Program-made: the position numbers and the translations under genes | From: Mucilaginibacter galii | GTDB taxonomy: Bacteria; Bacteroidota; Bacteroidia; Sphingobacteriales; Sphingobacteriaceae | DNA length: 64,000 nt | Direction of reading: 5' to 3' | Assembly: GCF_014635825.1 (NCBI RefSeq) | Contig: NZ_BMDO01000001.1 | Coordinates: 1 to 64,000, forward strand | Part shown: positions 14,275 to 45,222 of the stretch, one piece after another | Position numbering within the stretch: the stretch's first letter is position 1 | Layout: every line of letters begins with the position of its first letter | Notes under the pieces: model-generated | Seen by the model: only the letters and a program-made list of their open reading frames with translations | The model's database searches: none | Told to the model about the DNA's origin: nothing

Positions 14275-14298
14275 GGTTTGCTTTGACTAGGTAATCAG

Positions 14299-14385
14299 CG
14301 GTGAGGGAGGGATTCGAACCCTCGGTACAGTTTCCCGTACGTCAGTTTAGCAAACTGATCCTTTCGGCCTCTCAGGCACCTCACC
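14299..14385 (-). tRNA. tRNA-Ser(GCT)
   Basis: An 87-nt class II tRNA. The acceptor stem pairs GGTGAGG with CCTCACC and leaves G73, the serine discriminator. The anticodon loop is TTGCTAA, giving anticodon GCT. The long variable arm (ACGTACGGGAAACTGTACC region) and the T-loop TTCGAAT are clear. CCA is not encoded. Its 3' end points at the nearby integrase gene. Confidence 0.97.
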
Positions 14386-44809: not shown

Positions 44810-44982
44810 GGTGATGTTTTTTTAAGTTAATGTTACTGGTTTAATATACAAAACCATGCCAATCCATTAATTGATAGAAAAATATATTCACTATACTTTT
44901 CAAACCATTATTCCTATGCGTTGTACGGCATTTTTGCAGCTATTTTTTGAAAAAGGGATGAGAAGCGTTGAAAATTCTTGTA

Positions 44983-45014
44983 AAAAAAGCAAGGCCCCTG
45001 ATGGGCAGGGGCCT
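44983..45014 (-). terminator. terminator of the tRNA-like RNA gene
   Basis: On the minus strand AGGCCCCTG and CAGGGGCCT (9 bp, five-base loop) are followed by TTGC and seven T's. It lies 36 bases past the 3' end of the tRNA-like RNA, in the right orientation to end its transcript. Confidence 0.82.
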
Positions 45015-45050
45015 GTACTAACCAATTATAAACCTAAATTATGAGAAGAG

Positions 45051-45165
45051 CTGTAGGAGAAGGAGTCGAACCTTCACGGAGTGGTTAAAGTTTATTGCTA
45101 AACGCTTTCCAGAATCTCCGCCACCGCGACGAGGAGGTGTGTCTGCCAAATTTCACCATCCTACA
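45051..45165 (-). tRNA. tRNA-like RNA (class II) with an extraordinarily long variable arm
   Basis: About 115 nt. The acceptor stem pairs TGTAGGA with TCCTACA over seven bases; an extra C-G pair can extend it to eight. TGGTGAAATTTGGCAGACAC is a D-arm of the tRNA-Leu type, and GAAGG-TTCGACT-CCTTC a perfect T-arm. Between them lies an anticodon-like stem CCTCC/GGTGG (one T-T mismatch) with loop TCGTCGC, giving a GTC triplet and C where U33 is universal. After it comes a ~45-nt arm: CGGAG/CTCCG, TGG/CCA, AAAG/CTTT and GTTTA/TAAAC, capped by a GCAA tetraloop. It has its own promoter and terminator. It may not serve ordinary translation. Confidence 0.7.
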
Positions 45166-45190: not shown

Positions 45191-45222
45191 CAAATGTAAT
45201 ACATCAACCAATTACTTGCAAA
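45191..45222 (-). promoter_or_regulatory. Bacteroidota promoter driving the tRNA-like RNA
   Basis: On the minus strand TTTG (45222-45219) and TACATTTG (45198-45191) are spaced by exactly 20 bases, fitting the TTTG/TAnnTTTG consensus. The expected start of transcription lies about 10-20 bases before the RNA's 5' end. Confidence 0.75.

Follow-up and report, generated by a model that had tools for sequence, protein, structure and literature searches.

The 64,000-nt stretch of Mucilaginibacter galii DNA analyzed here (the window) encodes on its minus strand, from 45165 down to 45051, a 115-nt class II tRNA-like RNA, and the question raised by this locus is what an RNA with a tRNA body and a GUC anticodon is used for when the same genome carries a normal tRNAAsp(GUC) as well. 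All of the arms listed for it in a preliminary description, that is the acceptor, D-, anticodon, variable and T-arms, were recovered in a molecule of ~115 nt (Table 1), together with the anticodon loop TCGTCGC, which has C33 and GUC in the window copy, and a variable region of ~45 nt (about 44-45 nt in this copy) with nested stems and a GCAA loop. A promoter of its own and a same-strand T-tailed terminator had also been described as bracketing the RNA and both were confirmed, the promoter being of Bacteroidota type and its elements enriched upstream of the copies: the -7 element was found upstream of 92 of 160 distinct copies versus 6.6% of random stretches, and the -33/-7 pair in 51 of the 160 versus 0.9%. 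ARAGORN run on the window did not report the RNA at 45051-45165, nor did the whole-window Rfam search, and Rfam listed no copies from six further loci; in a focused search only, the window copy scored 31.4 bits with the Rfam tRNA model (RF00005), the gathering score of which is 29. The folding z-score of the single window sequence alone (-1.56) was unremarkable. A second copy of the RNA is present in the same genome (L061, G000:C5:40092-40205). Assignment as a tRNA-Sec, with an 8-bp acceptor formed by way of C45166 and G45051, was rejected on the basis of the GUC triplet, the 3-bp D-stem and an eighth pair that is not in all copies. The window also encodes an ordinary tRNA-Ser(GCU) at 14298-14385 (minus strand).

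Table 1. Features of the tRNA-like RNA locus in the window (all coordinates are window positions).
Feature	Position	Strand	Observation
-33 promoter element TTTG, 20 nt from the -7 element	45219..45222	-	pair found upstream of relatives
-7 promoter element TACATTTG	45191..45198	-	found upstream of relatives
tRNA-like RNA body, acceptor to G73, 115 nt	45051..45165	-	covariance model R1, 118.9 bits
Acceptor stem, 5' strand TGTAGGA (U1, G2)	45159..45165	-	pairs with 45052-45058
D-arm GTG/CAC, tRNA-Leu-like loop	45139..45156	-	covaries as GTG/CAC, ATG/CAT, TTG/CAA, ACG/CGT
Anticodon arm CCTCC-TCGTCGC-GGTGG, GUC at 45130-45128	45121..45137	-	GUC and C38 conserved
Giant variable arm CGGAG/CTCCG, TGG/CCA, GTTTA-GCAA-TAAAC	45077..45120	-	covarying helices 4 and 5
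T-arm GAAGG-TTCGACT-CCTTC	45059..45075	-	read from sequence, Rfam alignment and covariation
Acceptor 3' strand TCCTACA and discriminator G73 (45051)	45051..45058	-	G73 in 61/61 unselected members
Conserved 3' trailer CTCTTCTCATAATTTAGGTTTATAATTGGTTAGT	45015..45050	-	motif TTATAATTGGTTAGT at a near-fixed distance past the RNA in Sphingobacteriaceae loci
Intrinsic terminator (stem 44992-45014, T-run 44988-44982)	44982..45014	-	forms a stem when the full transcript is folded

Conservation and covariation in relatives had been set beforehand as a test on which the RNA would stand or fall, and when this was run the finding survived. By blastn the RNA was present in all same-genus genomes searched except one 71%-complete genome, usually as two tandem paralogues, and a covariance model extended it to many families of the class and to the majority of genera in the window's family, in which strong and weak matches were sharply apart (≤1.4e-25 versus ≥4e-13). 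The members, which were told from ordinary tRNAs by length and score (class-level weak matches of about 80-86 nt being counted as ordinary tRNAs on these grounds), come, among others, from Mucilaginibacter, Pedobacter, Chitinophaga, Cyclobacterium, Algoriphagus, Dyadobacter, Saprospiraceae and one Ignavibacteriales, and reach up to about 195 nt by virtue of longer variable arms. Their cloverleaf of a 7-bp acceptor and a 5-bp T-stem is conserved and its helices covary: in the first alignment double changes were seen at 8 pairs and 95% of cells were paired, and a larger set, which was aligned to the model in a manner that favours pairing, had 17 pairs with 281 double-changed cells and 97.4% paired versus at most 63% for slid controls. 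The RNA is a large covarying family across Bacteroidota, far beyond chance. Its Leu-like D-arm and its being missed by ARAGORN are what a degenerate tRNA-Leu pseudogene or repeat might present, but that reading was rejected on the covariation and we give it practically no credence, as the RNA has been kept across many families with compensatory changes. We conclude that this is a conserved, previously unlisted family of tRNA-derived RNA, of which no description was found among open-licence papers, and that tRNA finders and Rfam overlook it, Rfam giving at most a weak match to generic tRNA, despite its occurrence in many sequenced genomes. Bacterial tRNA-Leu, with which the RNA shares its D-arm sequence and class II body, is the likely ancestor, from which it differs in having GUC, C38, G73, U1-A72 and a much longer variable arm. 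Allo-tRNAs and selC* tRNACys (PMC7609411) are likewise non-canonical, class II-like and missed by standard finders, and GUC is among the allo-tRNA anticodons; however, those have 8/4 or 9/3 acceptor/T-stems and mostly Ser identity, whereas the RNA described here has conserved 7/5 stems and Asp determinants.

As the set of members from named organisms had been selected on GUC and C38, base frequencies are quoted from 61 unselected members. C38, G73, U1-A72 and G2-C71 are each present in 61/61 of these and GUC in 60/61. The bacterial Asp determinants are G73, G10, G34, U35, C36 and C38, and it is U1-A72 that allows GatCAB to amidate a tRNA, with G1-C72 and U20a blocking the reaction (PMC9976931). 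Read against these determinants, the member base frequencies combine two identities: G73, G34, U35, C36 and C38 are found in 60 or 61 of the 61 members, and the features of a GatCAB substrate are seen as well, U1-A72 being invariant and U20a absent, with the D-loop ending in GGCAGA or close variants without a U after GG. Two elements that would favour AspRS are not kept, position 10 being G, A or U and the 1-72 pair being U-A rather than G1-C72. On this reading of the sequences, the RNA joins the anticodon and discriminator set known for AspRS with the pair known for GatCAB. Position 74 is always an encoded C and the full CCA is rarely encoded, as expected in Bacteroidota (PMC5143459).

The positions that matter for decoding are far less constrained. 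Position 33 is U in 40, C in 14 and G in 7 of the 61 members, and position 37 is U in 37, C in 13 and G in 11 and never A; the elongator-tRNA pattern of U33 with a purine at 37 does not hold among the 61. The C33 that had been noted is, as such, a property of the window copy and not a family trait, since most relatives have U33 and others have C33 or G33. The doubt expressed earlier about a decoding role therefore stands on other grounds, namely that positions 33 and 37 are unconstrained and the aminoacylation bases invariant, and C33 itself is no argument for it. A role in decoding, either as a functional tRNA for Asp codons or as a missense tRNA, would agree with the GUC anticodon and with U33 in most copies, but we rejected this reading on the drift of the loop (C or G at position 33 in 21/61, a pyrimidine at 37 in 50/61) and hold it to be very improbable, given that a normal tRNAAsp(GUC) exists and that amidation would place Asn at Asp codons. 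The preliminary description had suggested a regulatory or non-translational mimic: the drift at 33 and 37 beside invariant charging bases supports the non-translational part, and the regulatory part gives way to a genomic context and a co-occurrence pattern that point to tRNA-dependent asparagine biosynthesis.

The co-occurrence pattern was apparent in 151 family genomes, which are drafts, with RNA-negative status taken from filtered searches and GatCAB judged by gatB: 92 have both the RNA and gatB, 44 have neither, 14 have gatB only and one (G351) has the RNA but no detected gatB. Classical AsnB was found in 0/93 RNA-positive versus 38/58 RNA-negative family genomes, scored with a classical AsnB protein and NF006949, as TIGR01536 alone over-counts AsnB through polysaccharide-type paralogues that exceed its cut-off. 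In the class, gatB was present in 50/50 RNA-positive versus 166/245 RNA-negative genomes and classical AsnB in 0/50 versus 39/245. The p-values for co-occurrence, which ignore phylogeny, were 1.5e-24, 2.5e-21, 4e-8 and 8e-4. The switch between AsnB and the RNA appears to have taken place at least twice within the family (in a five-genus group and in three g27 genomes, g27 being a genus) and once in a different family, in its genus g16 (G225 versus G095 and G164). Among 40 genomes that were checked further, all had matches to AsnRS, and the family genomes had GlnRS in all but three, those three having gatB and not the RNA; with AsnRS and GlnRS both present, GatCAB has no evident charging duty in most RNA-positive family genomes. 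The window genome itself has AspRS, AsnRS, GlnRS and GatB, and searches of it for AsnA and AsnB gave nothing over the cut-off.

The genomic context adds to this pattern. Beside the RNA, on the opposite strand and mostly 90-230 nt away, is a divergent gene for a protein of ~157 aa that has HTH and ligand domains of the AsnC type; the gene was present at 27 of the first 38 loci and at 49 of 80 loci from named organisms, Ignavibacteriales included (51 of 80 if two over-extended starts are counted). Its product has the Lrp/AsnC Pfam domains, and its best NCBIfam match is AsnC at 182.8 bits, under the equivalog cut-off of 227, versus 62.7 for Lrp. The window copy is apart from such a gene, behind an Fpg-like gene, and the other copy in the genome (L061) adjoins one. 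Other conserved neighbours are few and mostly confined to related genomes. The asnA gene of E. coli is activated by AsnC as long as there is no asparagine (PMC4482635); the divergent asnC-asnA pair is alike in that an AsnC-type gene adjoins an asparagine-making function, the difference being that its partner is asnA, whereas here the partner is an RNA gene and the control is putative.

Taken with the base conservation, a part for the RNA in tRNA-dependent asparagine synthesis is, on these comparative grounds, strongly supported. We think it probable, although well short of certain, that it is a non-decoding tRNA dedicated to the making of asparagine from aspartate, for which it would act as carrier. 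In such a cycle the RNA would be transcribed from its own promoter, processed in the manner of a tRNA and provided with CCA; ordinary AspRS would load it with aspartate, recognising G73, G34-U35-C36 and C38; GatCAB would recognise U1-A72 and amidate Asp to Asn on the RNA; and hydrolysis would free the asparagine to supply AsnRS, the RNA being recycled and AsnC-type control tuning it to asparagine supply. Because its anticodon is that of Asp and its product would be Asn, the RNA would have to avoid the ribosome, and both the drift at positions 33 and 37 and the very large variable arm would be in keeping with its staying off it. Charging, amidation and release are all steps that we infer from sequence, and release is the weakest link. 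The half-life of the ester is estimated at tens of minutes when hydrolysis is spontaneous, which is probably too slow for bulk asparagine, so that a releasing enzyme would be required, perhaps recruited by the variable arm.

Several observations count for or against a carrier of this kind. In its favour, the only RNA-positive genome checked that has AsnA (G224) carries a copy with a broken anticodon (G34C; L141 8072-8186), the only such member of the family. Against it, the family lacks both a conserved G10, which is a minor determinant for Asp, and the G1-C72 pair that is helpful to AspRS; several RNA-positive genomes carry polysaccharide-type AsnB paralogues, which might be a source of asparagine; G351 has the RNA with no gatB detected; and U1-A72 is found in the window genome's tRNAAsn too, so that asparagine may be made on tRNAAsn.

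This last route is known from Deinococcus, Thermus, Staphylococcus and Bdellovibrio (PMC4206432), in which AspRS and then GatCAB act on a tRNA with U1-A72, and the genomes that use it resemble RNA-positive genomes in having AsnRS, GlnRS and GatCAB and no asparagine synthetase. It depends on a decoding tRNAAsn and a relaxed AspRS, whereas here there would be a separate non-decoding RNA, the Asp identity of which would suit an ordinary AspRS. Where bacteria, some Bacteroidetes among them, have AsnRS, GlnRS and GatCAB and lack a synthetase, tRNA-dependent synthesis has been taken to be on tRNAAsn (PMC4206432). One AspRS was found among the class IIb synthetases of the window genome, of bacterial type with a GAD domain. 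At the position that we take from AspRS studies to be one that matters for discrimination, it has Leu, as do the discriminating enzymes of E. coli and Thermus (AspRS1), and the Asp/Asn enzymes of P. aeruginosa and M. tuberculosis have His; by this single-residue hint the window AspRS looks discriminating. The residue does not differ between RNA-positive and RNA-negative family members.

The main rival to a carrier is that the RNA nucleates a Bacteroidota AspRS-GatCAB particle as a scaffold, asparagine being made on ordinary tRNAAsn without the RNA as its final carrier. This shares the genomic evidence set out above and gains from the U1-A72 of tRNAAsn, from the fact that a tRNA belongs to the stable particle in the Thermus transamidosome (PMC9976931), and from its product entering translation directly, so that the release step is unneeded. 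We nevertheless regard it as unlikely, since the window AspRS looks discriminating at its key residue, the same in genomes with and without the RNA, and since use of the RNA's own end is suggested by the invariance of G73 and U1-A72. Slightly less likely still, in our estimate, is a regulatory RNA or decoy under AsnC-type control that titrates or senses AspRS or GatCAB or otherwise tunes asparagine metabolism with no bulk flux; the divergent AsnC-type gene, the multiple tandem copies and the conserved 3' trailer would all be consistent with it, but it leaves unexplained both the replacement of AsnB and the source of asparagine in RNA-positive genomes.

Aminoacyl-tRNAs have uses outside translation, such as Glu-tRNA for haem and Gly-tRNAs for staphylococcal peptidoglycan, and are alike in being metabolic intermediates, some of them on tRNAs that are poor in translation. 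The amino acid is different here, and the RNA would act in biosynthesis only, as a carrier. It seems to us fairly probable that asparagine is made lineage-wide, off the ribosome and under AsnC-type control, on a tRNA for which carrying a metabolite is the sole purpose of its evolution. If true, this would explain the asparagine supply of many Bacteroidota without asparagine synthetase as well as the retention of GatCAB beside AsnRS and GlnRS, and would be a clear example of a tRNA given over entirely to metabolism, as a pure biosynthetic cofactor.

Further features were observed in and around the copies. Between RNA and terminator, the trailer with AGGTTTATAATTGGTTAGT is nearly invariant across Sphingobacteriaceae (the window; L123, L125-L128), and its TGGTTAG is complementary to a conserved CTAACCA of the variable arm; the trailer is perhaps a processing signal or an alternative pairing. 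In the window genome, trailer and terminator also occur without a tRNA-like body upstream of tRNA-Ala (L059 1320-1390, G000:C1), perhaps as the relic of a lost copy, and at L127 (1344-1449, minus strand) a decayed copy followed by an intact trailer lies beside three intact ones. Tandem arrays of five copies were found at L123 7984-9601 and L124 8505-9220, and are of two types, one in which the copies lie about 370 bp from each other and each is served by a promoter and a terminator of its own, and one in which identical 34-nt spacers join the copies as if they were co-transcribed. Genes were looked for between tandem copies, and the short spacers held only promoters and terminators. The anticodon arms of Sphingobacteriaceae, including that of the window (45121-45139, minus strand), contain CACCTCCT(T), which resembles the 3' end of 16S rRNA (anti-Shine-Dalgarno); this likeness is probably a coincidence, as distant members are without CACCTCCT(T). 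An extra module, GGGTTGACCAC, is common to the long variable arms of several families (L129, L134, L135, L139 and L070).
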